NCBI GenBank assembly: GCA_024275075.1
Contig: JAJRZU010000076.1
Span: forward strand, 1 to 43,890
DNA: 43,890 bases
Direction of reading: 5' to 3'
Origin: Deltaproteobacteria bacterium
Lineage (GTDB): Bacteria; Desulfobacterota; JAJRXV01
Part shown: in pieces, positions 5,565 to 11,512 of the stretch
How the letters are laid out: each line of letters starts with the position of its first letter
How positions within the stretch are numbered: position 1 is the first letter of the stretch
Program-made: the position numbers and the translations under genes
Notes under the pieces: model-generated
The model's input: the letters and a program-made list of their open reading frames with translations, nothing else
Database searches by the model: none
What the model was told of the DNA's origin: nothing

Positions 5565-6914
5565 ATGAAAATAAAGTCCACAAGAAGCAGTTTCTTTCTT
5601 AGTATTTTGTCGGTGTTAGTTCTCGTTACTATCTTTTTTGTAAGTCCTGTGTTGGCCGAGGATGACGAAGGGGGAATGGCTGACATGCCGACATGTAAGA
5701 CCGATGAGTGCCATGCTGACTATGGGGTAAAAGAATATGTTCACGGGCCTGTAGGCATCGGCGCTTGTTACATCTGCCACAAAGCGACAACAGATTCTCA
5801 TCCAAACGAAGATACCTTAGATTTTGAACTTGCCGCTCAGGGCAAGGACCTTTGTTACCTGTGCCACGAACCAAAAGACCAGAACGAAACGGTTCACAAG
5901 CCGGTCCTGATGGGTGAGTGCCAGGGCTGTCATGACCCGCACCAATCAGATTTTCCGATGCAGTTGAAAAAGGGCACCACAAAGGATCTTTGCTTTTCAT
6001 GTCACGCAGATAATAAGACCAACCAGCAGTTTGTTCACGGGCCTGTCGCCGCAGGGGATTGTAATATATGTCACAATCCGCACTCCTCGGCTTATCCAAG
6101 ATTGTTAGAGAAAGACGGAAACGATCTTTGTTTCATGTGCCATATTGACAGACTGGCGGAGTTTACCAAAAAGTACGTCCACAAAGCCGCTCAGGAGAGT
6201 TGCTTAAACTGCCACGATCCGCATGGTTCACCAAACAAGTATATGTTAAAGCGTTTTGGTAAGGAGGTATGCTTCCTTTGCCATAAGGATAAGAAGGAGC
6301 AGATAGAAACGGCAAAGGTAAAGCATGGCGCCTTAAAAGAGGGGATATGTACGAATTGCCACACTCCGCACTCATCTGATTTCCCAAGGCAACTGAAGGC
6401 ACCGACTAAGGATATTTGTTATACATGCCACGAGGATATCGGCAAGAGGGTAAAGTCTGAGTTGTATATTCATGGCCCTGTTCAGCAGAATGACTGTTAT
6501 GCTTGTCATGATCCGCATGGTACAAATAACCCGAAGATATTGAAGAAGGCTTTCCCTGCGAAGTTCTATATGCCGTATAAGACAGAGAACTACGCACTTT
6601 GCTTTGGTTGCCACAACAAAGAGCTCGCACTGGATCCATTTACAGATAAGCTTACAAACTTCAGGAATGGTGATATGAACCTGCACTTCAAGCATGTTAA
6701 TAAAGATCCCAAGGGCAGGAGCTGTAAATCGTGTCATGCTCCTCATGCAGGGCCTCAACCGAAGCACATCAGGCCTGAAGTACCATTTGGGAATCCACCG
6801 ATGGTGTGGATGCTGCCGATTAATTATACTATGACAGAGAATGGTGGCACCTGTGAGGTGGGTTGCCATAAAACCAAGACCTATGACAGAGTTAACCCTG
6901 TGCAGTATAAGTAA
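5565..6914 (+). CDS. Periplasmic multihaem cytochrome c, doubled-CXXCH type (15 haem motifs)
   Basis: The 449-residue product has a clear signal peptide, cleaved after about residue 31 (PVLA|ED). It contains thirteen CxxCH haem-attachment motifs plus two variants: a CX4CH near the mature N-terminus and a CX3CH near the C-terminus. The core is a repeated unit of about 40-50 residues: an LCxxCH, then a VHGPV-type segment, then a CxxCHDPH. This is the doubled-CXXCH (paired_CXXCH) architecture. It would act as a periplasmic or exported electron wire. A GGGGGAGG ribosome-binding site precedes the ATG. It heads a run of closely spaced genes. The physiological donor and acceptor cannot be told from the sequence. 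Confidence 0.93.
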   Translation: MKIKSTRSSFFLSILSVLVLVTIFFVSPVLAEDDEGGMADMPTCKTDECHADYGVKEYVHGPVGIGACYICHKATTDSHPNEDTLDFELAAQGKDLCYLCHEPKDQNETVHKPVLMGECQGCHDPHQSDFPMQLKKGTTKDLCFSCHADNKTNQQFVHGPVAAGDCNICHNPHSSAYPRLLEKDGNDLCFMCHIDRLAEFTKKYVHKAAQESCLNCHDPHGSPNKYMLKRFGKEVCFLCHKDKKEQIETAKVKHGALKEGICTNCHTPHSSDFPRQLKAPTKDICYTCHEDIGKRVKSELYIHGPVQQNDCYACHDPHGTNNPKILKKAFPAKFYMPYKTENYALCFGCHNKELALDPFTDKLTNFRNGDMNLHFKHVNKDPKGRSCKSCHAPHAGPQPKHIRPEVPFGNPPMVWMLPINYTMTENGGTCEVGCHKTKTYDRVNPVQYK

Positions 6915-6939: not shown

Positions 6940-8037
6940 ATGAAAGATAAAAATGTTATAAGAAAAGTGAGTGAGTATTATTCTCACTATATCAGGAAGG
7001 ACAAGTTCTTTTGGCTATTTAGTGTCTCATTTATAACCCTTTTGCTGATAATTCTCATCCCACCGATTTTAGGGTCGGCGTTTAGGAACTTAAGGGTAGG
7101 GGATAAGATAACTCCCTTTACATTAAATGATTTAGACGGCAATGAGGTGAATATTGAAGATTATAAAGGGAAATTGTTAATATTTAACTTCTTCCAGATT
7201 GACCAGGAAAAGTCTCAAAAAGCGTTAAAAGCTCTTGTCGGGATGTACAAAGAGTTTAAAGAGAAAGATGTGCAGTTTATCGCTGTCACTTCCCAGGTCG
7301 ATCAGATAGAGGCGGTAAAAAAGTTCAAAGATGAAAATGGAGTTGATTTCCCCATATTAATTGATGGGGAGAAAACTGTTTACCAAAGCTTTGGTATCTT
7401 TGTTATGCCGGTCACTACCTTAATTGACAAGGAATTTAAGATCGAATATGAATATTCCTCTTTTATGATGGGGTTTGAAAACGAAGTCGGCGGCAGGTTA
7501 AAAGTCGCGCTTGGTGAGATGACGCAGGAGGAGTATGAAAAAAGTACAAAGCAGACTGTGATCGCTGAACGCTCCTCCGAAGAAAAATCCGCCGTTAAGA
7601 AGCTTGGACAGGCTGAGCTATTGATAGCGCGCGGGCGGCCTGATGAAGCCTTGAAATTATTAGAAGAAGTCGTCACATTAGACTCTACTATCGCGAAAGC
7701 TCATGTGTTATTAGGTGACGCTTTATTAAAGAAAGGTAAGTTTGAAGAAGCGACAACTGAGTATAATAAAGTAAAAGAGATGGTCAAAAAAATGTCGCCT
7801 ATGGCAAAAGCGGCTGATGTAGGGCTCGGTGCGGTACTCGCTTTGACCGGTGAGCTTGATAAAGCGCAAAAAATATTAAGTATGTCCGCGATGATAAACC
7901 CGAACCCGATATCTGCGGCAAAAGCATACTATTGGCTGGGGTACATCGCTGAGCAAAAAGGTGATCTAAAAAGCGCCGTAAAGCATTATAAAAAAGCTGT
8001 TGAAAAATTATTATCAAAAGCGAAAAGGGGTCGTTAA
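6940..8037 (+). CDS. Membrane-anchored thioredoxin-fold protein with TPRs, no cysteine
   Basis: A 365-residue protein with one N-terminal membrane anchor (about 23-46). A redoxin/TlpA-type domain follows (about 50-190) and a tetratricopeptide-like helical domain fills the C-terminal third. The TlpA-family signature DLDGNEVNIEDYKGK is present, as is the later VMPVTT cis-proline segment. The position that normally reads CxxC carries Ile87-Asp-Gln-Glu90. No cysteine occurs anywhere in the protein. It therefore cannot do thiol-disulfide chemistry and is more likely a scaffold or docking factor in the periplasm. It is a paralogue of the product at 8782-9960. It lies 25 bases after the 15-haem cytochrome and may assist cytochrome assembly or complex formation; that role is inferred. 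Confidence 0.8.
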   Translation: MKDKNVIRKVSEYYSHYIRKDKFFWLFSVSFITLLLIILIPPILGSAFRNLRVGDKITPFTLNDLDGNEVNIEDYKGKLLIFNFFQIDQEKSQKALKALVGMYKEFKEKDVQFIAVTSQVDQIEAVKKFKDENGVDFPILIDGEKTVYQSFGIFVMPVTTLIDKEFKIEYEYSSFMMGFENEVGGRLKVALGEMTQEEYEKSTKQTVIAERSSEEKSAVKKLGQAELLIARGRPDEALKLLEEVVTLDSTIAKAHVLLGDALLKKGKFEEATTEYNKVKEMVKKMSPMAKAADVGLGAVLALTGELDKAQKILSMSAMINPNPISAAKAYYWLGYIAEQKGDLKSAVKHYKKAVEKLLSKAKRGR

Positions 8038-8075: not shown

Positions 8076-8750
8076 GTGTTTAAAAGGAGTGTGAAGGGAG
8101 TTTTCACTATAGTTTTTGTTTTTGCAATGGTCTCTTTCGCAAAAGCAGGTAATATTTCAGTTATCGCGCCTTTAGATGGCGTGGGTGTCAATTCAAATGA
8201 TATCGTTATAATCGGCAAGGCGGGACAGAGCATAAAAGAGTTGCAGATAAAAGGTACCGCGAAGGATAATCTGAAAGTGAAGGTAAATAACGGGGGGTTC
8301 TTTGCTAAAGTCAAATTACCAGACAGTGATAATACGATAAATTTATCCGCCACTGACGGCTCCTCCCTTGACCTGCATATTAAAGTCAGCAAGACCGGTG
8401 GCTTTAATTATCATCCTGATATGGATGAAGCGTTAGATTGTGCGTCTACTTGCCATACTGATGTAGAAAAGAACGGGTATGCTGTAAAATCATCGGCGGG
8501 GATATGCTATGAGTGCCATGATGTCAATAATGACAAGGCTTATGTGCATGGTCCTGTCAATATGGGCATTTGTACTGTATGTCACAGGCCGCACGGGTCT
8601 GATGCCCAGATGTTTCTTGTGACAGATAAAAAGATTTTATGTAATGGATGTCATGATTCTCTGATGTCATCGCATCCTGATACAACAAGTAAGCTTTGTA
8701 TCGATTGTCATGACCCGCACAGCTCTGATAAAGAGTTTCATATTAAATAG
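8076..8750 (+). CDS. Periplasmic five-haem cytochrome c with N-terminal Ig-like domain
   Basis: The 224-residue protein starts at GTG, chosen because AGGAGG lies 9 bases upstream. A signal peptide ends near residue 24. Residues 27-105 look like a bacterial Ig-like/Big domain (ISVIAPLDGVGVNSNDIVIIGKA). The C-terminal half has five haem motifs: CX3CH at 122-127, then CxxCH at 144, 166, 189 and 208. The spacing again follows the doubled-CXXCH pattern (VHGPV, CHDPHSSD) of the larger cytochrome upstream. It is probably a smaller partner in the same electron chain, with the Ig-like domain giving protein or surface contact. Confidence 0.88.
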   Translation: MFKRSVKGVFTIVFVFAMVSFAKAGNISVIAPLDGVGVNSNDIVIIGKAGQSIKELQIKGTAKDNLKVKVNNGGFFAKVKLPDSDNTINLSATDGSSLDLHIKVSKTGGFNYHPDMDEALDCASTCHTDVEKNGYAVKSSAGICYECHDVNNDKAYVHGPVNMGICTVCHRPHGSDAQMFLVTDKKILCNGCHDSLMSSHPDTTSKLCIDCHDPHSSDKEFHIK

Positions 8751-8781: not shown

Positions 8782-9960
8782 ATGAAAAAGAAATGGCTGT
8801 TTCACTTTAGTTTAGTAACGTTAATTAGTGTGATCTTATTGACGCAGGTTTCCGTCGCGGCATTTAAGAATGTCTCCGTGGGGGCAACAGCACCTAATAT
8901 AACGTTAAAGGATTTAGACGGTAATGATGTCTCCTTAGAGGATATTTATAAAAACAATGAGCTTACATTGCTCATCTTCTGGGCGGTATGTAGCCCGAGG
9001 TCGATAGAGCAGTTAAAAGACTATCAAAAGTTCTATGACCTGTACAAGGAGAAGAGTGTCCGGATTCTTGCCGTAAATGTCGAAAGTGAGGATATCACTG
9101 AAGAGGATGTCGCTAAGATCAAGTCGATCATTGATGAAAACGGTATAAAGTTCACTGTCGTCATGGATGAAGGGCTGGCCGCTTTTCGTAATTATGGTGT
9201 AGTTGCCATACCTTCTTCTGCAATTATCAAAAAAGATGGAGAGATCGTCAAGGATTACGCGAGCTATGCAACTTTCGCCTATCTGGATATCTTAGATAAT
9301 ATTGAATATGAGTTAGGGATCAAAGAGAGACCGAAGGAAGTCGAGATCGCCGAAGCGGCAAAGCGGTACAAGCCTGTCAAAGCGTCTCTTCTGCACTACG
9401 GCCTTGGTAAGAAGCTTATTCAAAGAGGTATGGCTGATAAAGCGATACGGGAATTCAAGAAGGCCTCTGATATTGACGGCAAATTTGACCAGCCGCACGT
9501 TTTATTAGCCGAAGTGTACTATGAAAAGTCGTTAAAGCAAAAGAGTAAAACGAAGAAGGAACAGTATTTGAAAGATGCTAAAGATGAATACTTGAAGGCG
9601 CTTGAAATAAATGCTGAGAACCTGCCAGCTCTATCCGGGCTTGCGCTGGTCTTGATACAGGAACAAAACGAGAAGGAAGCTGAAGAGAGCATTGAGAAAG
9701 CGCTCGGGCTTGAGCCTAACTTCACGCCGGCACTGGCGGCGAAAGGCGTTCTGTTTAAGAATAAAGGTGATAAAGAAAACGCCATCGAGAATTTTAAAAA
9801 GGCGCTGGAGCTAAACCCGAATCAACCGTTGGTGCATTATCAGATGGCTATGACATATAAAGATGCCGGTGATAATGAGCAGTCCGTGGCAAGTCTCAAA
9901 GAGGCTTTCAGGATATTGATCAAGCAGGTTTCATTGGCCAAATTGCAAGAGCACAAATAA
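8782..9960 (+). CDS. Periplasmic thioredoxin-fold/TPR protein with degenerate CxxC (CSPR)
   Basis: ATG 8782 was chosen over a TTG five codons earlier because GGAAGGGG lies at the right distance only for the ATG, giving 392 residues. A signal peptide or anchor covers about residues 5-27. The TlpA/redoxin domain (28-175) has LLIFWAVCSPR, where the resolving Cys of CxxC is replaced by Arg73. Cys70 is the only cysteine in the protein. Several TPR repeats follow to the C-terminus (for example ALELNPNQPLVHYQMAMTYKDAGD). A lone Cys could form a mixed disulfide or bind a ligand but could not cycle as an oxidoreductase. The gene is immediately upstream of the UGA-containing mini-gene, whose UxxC motif could supply the missing redox pair; this link is inferred. 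Confidence 0.85.
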   Translation: MKKKWLFHFSLVTLISVILLTQVSVAAFKNVSVGATAPNITLKDLDGNDVSLEDIYKNNELTLLIFWAVCSPRSIEQLKDYQKFYDLYKEKSVRILAVNVESEDITEEDVAKIKSIIDENGIKFTVVMDEGLAAFRNYGVVAIPSSAIIKKDGEIVKDYASYATFAYLDILDNIEYELGIKERPKEVEIAEAAKRYKPVKASLLHYGLGKKLIQRGMADKAIREFKKASDIDGKFDQPHVLLAEVYYEKSLKQKSKTKKEQYLKDAKDEYLKALEINAENLPALSGLALVLIQEQNEKEAEESIEKALGLEPNFTPALAAKGVLFKNKGDKENAIENFKKALELNPNQPLVHYQMAMTYKDAGDNEQSVASLKEAFRILIKQVSLAKLQEHK

Positions 9961-10013
9961 GACGGACAGAATTTGTTTGCGGTTCTTGCTTGATTACTTT
10001 TTAGGTGAAATAC

Positions 10014-10154
10014 ATGAGTATCCGAAAACTCCTGACTTTCATAGTGTTTTTTGCATTTATAGCTATACTGTGGTACGGCGTCAGTAAAGGTGAGTTTGCC
10101 GAATCGGTTTTTAACGGTAACTTATTGTGACTTTCATGTATCGGGGTCGGGTAA
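10014..10154 (+). CDS. Probable selenoprotein: 46-residue membrane protein with C-terminal UxxC (CD1871A-like)
   Basis: An ATG at 10014 with AGGTGA 5 bases upstream opens a frame of 38 codons, meets TGA at 10128-10130 and continues eight more codons to TAA at 10152. Read with selenocysteine at residue 39, the product has one membrane helix (about 5-24) and ends ULSCIGVG. From memory, the CD1871A family of ~45-residue proteins ends in CxxCIGxG and sits beside thioredoxin-like and 4Fe-4S membrane proteins. This is exactly the context here: the neighbours are a TlpA-like protein and a polyferredoxin. The UGA replaces the first Cys of that motif. A hairpin with a G-rich loop begins at the distance seen in E. 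coli fdhF. Without Sec insertion the product would stop before the conserved tail. selA, selB and selC are not in the window. Confidence 0.72.
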
Positions 10155-10158
10155 CTCC
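10143..10158 (+). promoter_or_regulatory. Candidate bacterial SECIS hairpin
   Basis: GGGGT (10143-10147) pairs with ACTCC (10154-10158), including one G-U pair, around a six-base loop CGGGTA. The loop starts 17 bases after the UGA, matching the spacing of the fdhF SECIS in E. coli, and is G-rich with a GU step. The stem is short and the loop overlaps the final TAA, so the call rests on position plus the conserved peptide downstream of the UGA. Confidence 0.5.
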
Positions 10159-10201: not shown

Positions 10202-11512
10202 TTGTTTTCTTTTAGTATATTTGGTTTCTTAATAATTAGCGCTATATCTCTTTCTATAATTTATAAAATTAATAAAAGGGCAGCTGTTTACGCTCTTGTG
10301 CTTGTTATTGCCTATTTAGTTCTACACTTCTATTTCTTGAGTAATATCGATAGCTTTTCAACTCAAAGCATTACTAATGTATTAAATGCATTATACTATA
10401 CTGCTGCGTTCTCAACCACCTTGCTTTTTATATTACTTCTCACTTTAATCGCAAAATTCAGCACCCTGGCTTCGGGCGTGACCGGTATTTTTGTAACCAT
10501 TTTCTTCGCTTTTGCTGGTATCATATTCTTTGACCTGTTAGGTAACAGTATCTCTGTTTTTAACATAGTGCTCATCAACAAAAACATCTTCTACATGATA
10601 ATCATACTATGGCTCATAATAGACATATACATGATATCATTAAGCATTGACCACAACAGGAGGCTTTACCAGTTATCTTCGCTTCTGATTATGGACTCGG
10701 CGATAAAAGGGTTTCTCACTGCGTCTATTTATCAAGGGACATCGAAAGGTTTTTGCGTACCGGTGCTAAACTGCTATGCCTGCCCGTCGGCTATATTCGC
10801 GTGCCCCATCGGGACTATTCAGCACTTTATGGTGATCGGCGGCAGACCAGAGGACTCAAAGATGTTCTTCGCGAACCTCCCGTACTACCCGATAGGGCTT
10901 TTAGGTGTGACTGCCGCCGCTGTCGGAAGGATGTGTTGCGGCTACCTTTGCCCATTCGGCTTTACACAGGACTTATTGTACAAGTTGAAAGTCCATAAAG
11001 TACGGGTGCCAAAGATTCTGCGTCACTTTAAATATCTCACGCTCATCGTGCTGGTATTTATATTACCAATGATGCTTGGAGAGAACTGGTTCTCGAAATT
11101 ATGCCCGATGGGAACGTTGATAGGCGGGATACCATGGGTGACGATAAACGTTGACATAAGGGGCATGGTAAAAGCTATCTTCTGGATTAAACTCGCTATT
11201 TTGATGACTTATGTAACCTTCTCCACCATCTCCAAAAGACCTTTTTGCCAGACCTCTTGTCCCTTAGGGGCTATCTATTCTTTGTTTAACAGGGTGAGCT
11301 TCTTTAAGTTGACCTGGGACAGCAGGACATGTACCCATTGCAATAAGTGTGAGGATATCTGCCCGATGGACATAAAGGTCTATGAAGAGCCAAACGCCGT
11401 TGACTGCATTCGCTGCCTTGACTGCGTGAGGTGCCCAAGTGTTTCGTTGACTCATCCATTCAGCGCCTTAGAGAAAGAGGAAGAGGATATTTTATTAAGT
11501 TATAAAATATAA
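10202..11512 (+). CDS. Membrane polyferredoxin (NapH/NosR/CcoG-like 4Fe-4S protein)
   Basis: A TTG start follows AAGGAGAG closely and gives 436 residues. The N-terminal 160 residues are a set of membrane helices without Cys. The second half carries the Cys motifs of the NapH/NosR family: NCYACPSAIFACPIG, CGYLCPFG, CQTSCPLG, then two classical 4Fe-4S motifs, CTHCNKCEDICP and CIRCLDCVRCP, on the cytoplasmic side. Such proteins pass electrons across or along the membrane to periplasmic acceptors. It follows the mini-selenoprotein by 47 bases. Together with the cytochromes it could form a quinone- or ferredoxin-to-haem conduit. The exact reductase is not identifiable. Confidence 0.88.
   Translation: MFSFSIFGFLIISAISLSIIYKINKRAAVYALVLVIAYLVLHFYFLSNIDSFSTQSITNVLNALYYTAAFSTTLLFILLLTLIAKFSTLASGVTGIFVTIFFAFAGIIFFDLLGNSISVFNIVLINKNIFYMIIILWLIIDIYMISLSIDHNRRLYQLSSLLIMDSAIKGFLTASIYQGTSKGFCVPVLNCYACPSAIFACPIGTIQHFMVIGGRPEDSKMFFANLPYYPIGLLGVTAAAVGRMCCGYLCPFGFTQDLLYKLKVHKVRVPKILRHFKYLTLIVLVFILPMMLGENWFSKLCPMGTLIGGIPWVTINVDIRGMVKAIFWIKLAILMTYVTFSTISKRPFCQTSCPLGAIYSLFNRVSFFKLTWDSRTCTHCNKCEDICPMDIKVYEEPNAVDCIRCLDCVRCPSVSLTHPFSALEKEEEDILLSYKI

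Follow-up and report, generated by a model that had tools for sequence, protein, structure and literature searches.

A probable selenoprotein relative of the CD1871A mini-proteins, encoded beside a NapH-like iron-sulfur protein in a Desulfobacterota genome

The closest described relatives of the gene discussed here are the CD1871A proteins (CD1871A_fam, NCBIfam NF040920). These are about 40-50 amino acids long, have one N-terminal membrane helix and end in CxxCIGxG directly before the stop codon. A 2026 review (PMC13188914) provides a table of 119 prokaryotic selenoprotein families, and this table contains neither NF040920 nor a mini-protein ending in UxxCIGxG, where U is selenocysteine (Sec). 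The mini-protein family described below, which occurs across many lineages of anaerobic bacteria, is absent from that catalogue. Public protein databases were not covered, so an existing annotation is possible. A literature search also found no mention of CD1871A, with the limitation that the primary papers of Haft and colleagues were outside its coverage.

Other known systems share single traits with this family. The selenoprotein TsoA (LULAXC motif, NF045695; PMC13188914) has the same LUL string at its Sec, but its spacing is U-x-x-x-C and not U-x-x-C, and its model found no match at E<=1 among the mini-proteins scanned. Sec-containing TlpA/ResA-like proteins (WAxxUGC in NF041054, and the UGC and UxxC entries in PMC13188914) are likewise periplasmic thiol-redox selenoproteins, but these have a thioredoxin fold of about 150 amino acids instead of a tail on a single helix. 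The transmembrane electron-transfer proteins of the NapH/MauN/NosR type have 4Fe-4S motifs that are also found in the downstream partner of the mini-gene. That partner differs in having an extra conserved CxxxxxCxxCxxxxxxC segment, and it scores only 57-64 bits where the NapH cut-off is 213.

The window, by which is meant the whole stretch of 43,890 nucleotides that was analysed (contig JAJRZU010000076.1), contains the following features of interest.

5565..6914, + strand: multihaem cytochrome c with paired CXXCH, a possible user of periplasmic thiol reduction
6940..8037, + strand: second TlpA-like redoxin and TPR protein, without CxxC, in the same operon direction
8076..8750, + strand: second CXXCH cytochrome-like protein
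8782..9960, + strand: secreted protein with a TlpA/ResA-like redoxin domain and TPRs, the upstream neighbour; active-site region WAVCSPRS, CxxC not intact
10003..10008, + strand: Shine-Dalgarno-like AGGTGA with the ATG 5 nt downstream, from sequence
10014..10154, + strand: putative mini-selenoprotein gene, 46 codons including Sec codon 39, then TAA; from sequence and homologues
10128..10130, + strand: predicted Sec codon UGA, first position of UxxC, Cys in the Cys homologues
10143..10158, + strand: putative SECIS hairpin, arms 10143-10147 and 10154-10158, loop 10148-10153 (CGGGUA); based on comparison, weak in the window copy
10202..11512, + strand: NapH/MauN-like polytopic 4Fe-4S protein, the downstream partner, with CxxxxxCxxCxxxxxxC, CxxxC and two C-terminal ferredoxin-type sites

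A preliminary description of this DNA, made without database searches, had proposed a 46-codon gene with a ribosome site, an in-frame UGA at codon 39 and the tail LSCIGVG before a TAA. All of this can be read in the sequence. The gene runs from the ATG at 10014 through 38 codons to the UGA at 10128-10130, and then through LSCIGVG to the TAA at 10152-10154, with AGGTGA at 10003-10008 in front of it; an in-frame GTG at 10005 could serve as the start instead. Read through, the product is MSIRKLLTFIVFFAFIAILWYGVSKGEFAESVFNGNLL-U-LSCIGVG, which is 46 residues with U at codon 39. Judged from the sequence, its membrane helix is N-terminal (roughly residues 7-23), and its C-terminus ULSCIGVG is CxxCIGxG with U as the first C. 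It had also been foreseen that a gene finder halting at the UGA would lose the redox motif. The truncated product of 38 residues matches no model. No family matching the mini-protein was found in a Pfam search.

The resemblance to CD1871A proteins that had been noted earlier holds as homology and as a shared layout, but not as membership by the cut-off of the model. The full-length window product reaches 18.2 bits against NF040920 (E=0.0017), where the cut-off is 32. It differs by having Sec in place of the first Cys. The cut-off is exceeded by Cys homologues of the same phylum (35-51 bits), and 17 of 23 Sec and Cys relatives in one set (A2) match the model at E<=0.01. By these profile scores, the mini-protein is a divergent relative of the CD1871A proteins.

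If the UGA is read through, relatives should have kept what comes after it. The preliminary description stated that its proposal would be refuted if similarity were lost after the UGA in relatives, or if no homologue had Cys at position 39. Neither turned out to be so. In a sister genome of the same family (G001) the UGA is kept in a mini-protein of 65% identity. Before the UGA the two genes differ by 13 synonymous and 15 non-synonymous codon changes, while after it all seven residues are identical and the three codon changes are all synonymous. In other relatives, too, similarity goes on beyond the UGA.

A profile built from eight members was run on 395 genomes of the phylum, and it found the family in 119 of these. 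In 34 genomes the match has one internal TGA (one of these, in G082, is weak). The remaining matches that were read are Cys forms, with Cys at the UGA position. Two criteria for a selenoprotein are met here: the UGA aligns with a Cys in homologues, and it is kept with coding conservation past it. In the phylum around a Lachnospiraceae genome, 44 of 300 genomes matched and none had the TGA form. Some genomes (G199, G243, G350 and G202) hold two or three copies, in some cases mixing Sec and Cys forms.

A broader scan used a degenerate DNA pattern on 84,980 species genomes. This matched 108 stretches, 73 of which score at least 20 bits with the mini-protein profile and are taken as real UGA forms. 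Of these real forms, 60 have a NapH-like gene within the stretch, against none of the other 35. Those 35 were chance matches with clearly lower profile scores and no such neighbour; a chance motif was rejected as a general explanation. A decayed gene was also considered and rejected. Since some bases of the tail are prescribed by the pattern, their conservation in this set is not independent evidence. The real UGA forms come from about ten lineages, among them Deltaproteobacteria, Deferrisomatales, Poribacteria, Calditrichaeota, LCP-89, Zixibacteria, Eisenbacteria, Coatesbacteria, Anaerolineae, Cloacimonadota and Ignavibacteria. With the UGA kept in the sister genome and dozens of homologues having either UGA or Cys, the reading of this UGA is, on comparative grounds, more than chance.

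Inserting Sec needs dedicated machinery, and it had been stated beforehand that a genome lacking it would refute the proposal. The source draft genome (2.46 Mb, 96% complete) has all four components that were to be looked for: tRNA-Sec (79 bits, called tRNA-SeC by ARAGORN), SelB (327 bits, above cut-off), SelA (583 bits) and SelD (343 bits), the last with an in-frame UGA of its own (SGUAGK). The selA gene (L203, G000:C84:10157-11527, + strand) has one in-frame TAG, in VDL-TAG-PYG. This position is Ser or Ala in two relatives, and the SelA matches of three relatives have no stops, with the match in the sister genome being incomplete. An assembly error or decay could explain the TAG, and amber recoding is not excluded. 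This caveat concerns the source genome alone.

Among sampled genomes from the broad scan, tRNA-Sec is present in 35 of 37 with a UGA form and in 3 of 13 with a chance match (Fisher p=1.6e-6); the two UGA-form genomes where none was found both have SelB. Within the phylum tRNA-Sec is present in all 34 UGA-form genomes, but also in 42 of 46 Cys-only genomes that were sampled, which makes the association weak within the phylum. In five loci (L109, L172, L187, L161 and L177) the Sec mini-gene has selA nearby, and in the first three of these selB as well. Separately, the weak UGA-containing match at G082:C31:22963-23082 is about 1.4 kb from a tRNA-Sec gene on the same contig.

The earlier reading also placed a SECIS-like hairpin 17 bases after the UGA. 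There is a hairpin, but it starts at 12 nt, and it is the apical loop that starts at 17 nt. The stop codon at 10152-10154 is shared between the loop and the 3' arm. The published bacterial SECIS model (PMC13188914) has a loop of 3-9 nt, a stem of 4-16 bp, a G in the first two loop bases and a loop located 16-37 nt from the UGA. With 5 bp and the 6-nt loop CGGGUA at 17 nt, the window hairpin meets this geometry. At -3.9 kcal/mol it fails the bSECIS limit of <= -7.5 kcal/mol, which is a filter of a prediction program and not a biological requirement. The window copy has a UAA stop and one G-U pair. Because it is energetically weak and not the minimum-energy fold, it is backed by comparison and not by its own sequence alone.

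This comparison covered 83 distinct Sec genes and 34 Cys genes. The best constrained hairpin has a median of -8.3 kcal/mol in the former and -2.15 in the latter (p=5e-13). The -7.5 kcal/mol limit is passed by 54% of Sec genes, 3% of Cys genes and 5% of shuffled Sec sequences. In 73 of the 83 Sec genes the loop begins 17 or 18 nt past the UGA (18 nt in 64, 17 nt in nine). The typical form is GGGGUC-GGGU-GACCCC, in which the 3' arm consists of the last two bases of the stop codon and the first untranslated bases. GGGUUA-GGC-UAACCC is a second form. Both sides vary at pairs 18-29 and 19-28 (GC, AU, UA, CG). Of the 366 cells in the full set of 61 distinct cores, 321 are paired, where shuffles give 290.9 (sd 3.4). 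A subset of 39 sequences picked in one register has 37 double-change cells versus 12.4 (sd 4.5). These 39 are 90% paired, versus 37-58% in slid registers, but the choice of register inflates the percentage paired. When 60-nt windows were scored by minimum free energy z-score, Sec and Cys genes could not be told apart (p=0.78). As far as comparison can tell, the covarying hairpin that Sec genes have and Cys genes lack is the SECIS.

In a quick tree of 78 partner proteins, Sec and Cys forms fall into two large clades and at least four changes are needed. These are a deep split, a later acquisition of Sec within the Cys clade, and two losses to Cys within the Sec clade (L049 and L052, both with decayed hairpins). 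Clade sizes are not unbiased, because the Sec loci were partly chosen by pattern. The loci of the recent Cys-to-Sec gain (L056, L061, L064 and L134) are without the usual hairpin; three of them have a SECIS-like hairpin with its loop 29 nt after the UGA. The distal hairpin of this group overlaps the start of the next gene.

Could the UGA still be a true stop, with a membrane peptide of 38 residues as the product and the conserved tail as a relic or an RNA element? The first 38 codons would by themselves make an unremarkable small membrane peptide, UGA serves as a normal stop elsewhere in the window, and there are no selenium data. This would leave unexplained why all three changes past the UGA between the sister genomes are synonymous, as if the tail is kept as protein, why Cys homologues read straight through, why UGA forms track tRNA-Sec and why the hairpin is lost in Cys forms. 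It is considered very improbable. An open frame alone also cannot tell which residue is inserted, and a code in which UGA is Trp or Gly, or plain readthrough, would give the same frame. Hardly any weight is given to this, since all non-UGA homologues that were read have Cys there, UGA ends many genes and frequently terminates this very mini-gene 24 nt further on, and SelB, tRNA-Sec and a UGA-containing SelD are present. A UGA=Trp code was rejected. That the UGA at 10128-10130 is read as selenocysteine is, even without a selenium measurement, close to certain. The comparison of sequences establishes the gene, the conservation of its UGA, the exchange of Cys and Sec, the covariation of the SECIS, the Sec machinery and the partnership of genes; actual insertion of selenium is inferred.

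The neighbours are as the preliminary description had them, with a TlpA/ResA-like redoxin upstream and a NapH/MauN-like 4Fe-4S membrane protein downstream. Adjoining such a membrane protein had been given as a trait of CD1871A genes, and this holds: the NapH-like gene is downstream in 33 of 34 Cys loci and 58 of 71 Sec loci. The NapH-like partner has 17-18 conserved cysteines, including CxxxxxCxxCxxxxxxC. The copy in the window fails the NapH cut-offs (63.7 versus 213 bits for TIGR02163, and 55.5 versus 234 for NF007013). Its AlphaFold model is mediocre (pLDDT 73.7, pTM 0.61), and a structure search with this model gave no PDB match. A sequence search of the PDB returned only ferredoxin-type polyferredoxins and related Fe-S proteins, by way of the C-terminal clusters.

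A TlpA-like gene is upstream in 38 of 75 Sec loci, versus 1 of 32 Cys loci. In the sister genome, the counterpart of the 8782-9960 redoxin has WATWSPRS. In 14 Sec loci the gene directly upstream is TlpA-like with its own UGA in UxxC, for example WKSNURQC (L115, L125, L129, L137, L138, L161, L168, L177, L178, L179, L182, L184, L198 and L199). Such operons of two selenoproteins are found in Calditrichota, LCP-89, Zixibacteria and similar lineages. Two further loci, L074 (2-4295) and L079 (1-4177), have the Sec mini-gene between MamE/MamO-like HtrA proteases and the NapH-like gene, and by inspection L026 has a similar protease upstream.

The mechanism that is proposed would work as follows. The UGA is decoded as Sec, directed by a short SECIS hairpin straddling the stop codon, and this would yield a single-helix membrane protein of 46 residues with a C-terminal UxxC-IGxG tail. 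By the positive-inside rule this tail is expected on the periplasmic side. Most likely the mini-protein and the neighbouring NapH-like Fe-S protein form a transmembrane redox relay. NapH-like proteins have been proposed to take electrons through the membrane (PMC8238504). In the model, quinol or a donor in the cytoplasm would supply electrons that cross the membrane through the NapH-like clusters and reduce the U-C selenylsulfide of the mini-protein. From there they may go on to thioredoxin-like (TlpA/ResA) proteins of the periplasm and to the clients of these, such as the haem-binding cysteines of the multihaem cytochromes encoded in this gene cluster. The simplest model is a relay that runs from the Fe-S protein to thiols in the periplasm, because the tail is expected outside, thioredoxin-like genes adjoin and NapH-like proteins are proposed carriers. 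Since both TlpA-like proteins in the window are without an intact CxxC, another electron acceptor is possible there. Topology, contact between the partners, direction of flow and clients are inferred, and for direction and clients the odds are about even. Sec identity together with a redox role for the mini-protein is held to be highly likely, again with no selenium measured.

With Sec accepted, the tail might instead serve the NapH-like complex as a small subunit, either structural or binding a metal or Fe-S cluster, and not be a thiol relay. The tight pairing with a protein of so many conserved cysteines fits this, as do the place of the tail at the extreme C-terminus, a TlpA-like partner that is not universal, and the missing catalytic Cys in the TlpA-like proteins of the window. 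On the other hand, UxxC recurs as a redox motif and Fe-S clusters rarely have Sec as a ligand, and 14 loci pair the mini-gene with a TlpA-like UxxC protein. Such a subunit is possible but rather unlikely. Flow could also be reversed, with the tail taking electrons or disulfides from periplasmic proteins and feeding quinone through the NapH-like protein in an oxidative role. NapH-like systems do serve reductases and oxidases alike (PMC8238504), but the anaerobic setting, the multihaem cytochromes and the ResA/TlpA-type partners favour reduction, and with no direct data either way an oxidative role is thought improbable.

If the reductive relay is right, its proposed job resembles that of the thiol-electron importers DsbD/CcdA, which supply reducing power to periplasmic thioredoxin-like proteins. 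DsbD has its cysteine pairs within one protein, whereas here there would be an Fe-S protein and a UxxC mini-protein, and no sequence relation is claimed. The broadest form of the proposal is a tentative one, somewhat short of even odds: a new type of transmembrane thiol/selenol reductase and alternative to DsbD/CcdA, in which an uncatalogued selenoprotein family of about ten lineages, with a SECIS stem using its own stop codon, works with a NapH-like Fe-S protein to feed thioredoxin-like proteins of the periplasm, the maturation of cytochromes and, in some Desulfobacterota, the formation of magnetosomes. Mad6 of Desulfovibrio magneticus consists largely of a NapH domain, and few magnetosomes form in a mad6 mutant (PMC4287615). 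Where the mini-gene lies next to MamE/MamO-like proteases and a NapH-like protein that resembles Mad6, this placement hints at a possible role of selenium in making magnetosomes, though identity with mad6 is only possible.

For the bacterial selenoproteome this would mean one more family, whose members gene finders cut to 38 residues and which, even with the UGA read through, does not reach the nearest curated cut-off. The results point to a general redox module of a mini UxxC/CxxC protein and a NapH-like Fe-S protein, often with a TlpA-like protein. The SECIS that contains the stop codon, with two UGAs 24 nt apart that are read oppositely in many members, is a compact natural test of how SelB chooses between Sec and stop. 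The module also offers a direct test of electron delivery to periplasmic thiols in anaerobes.
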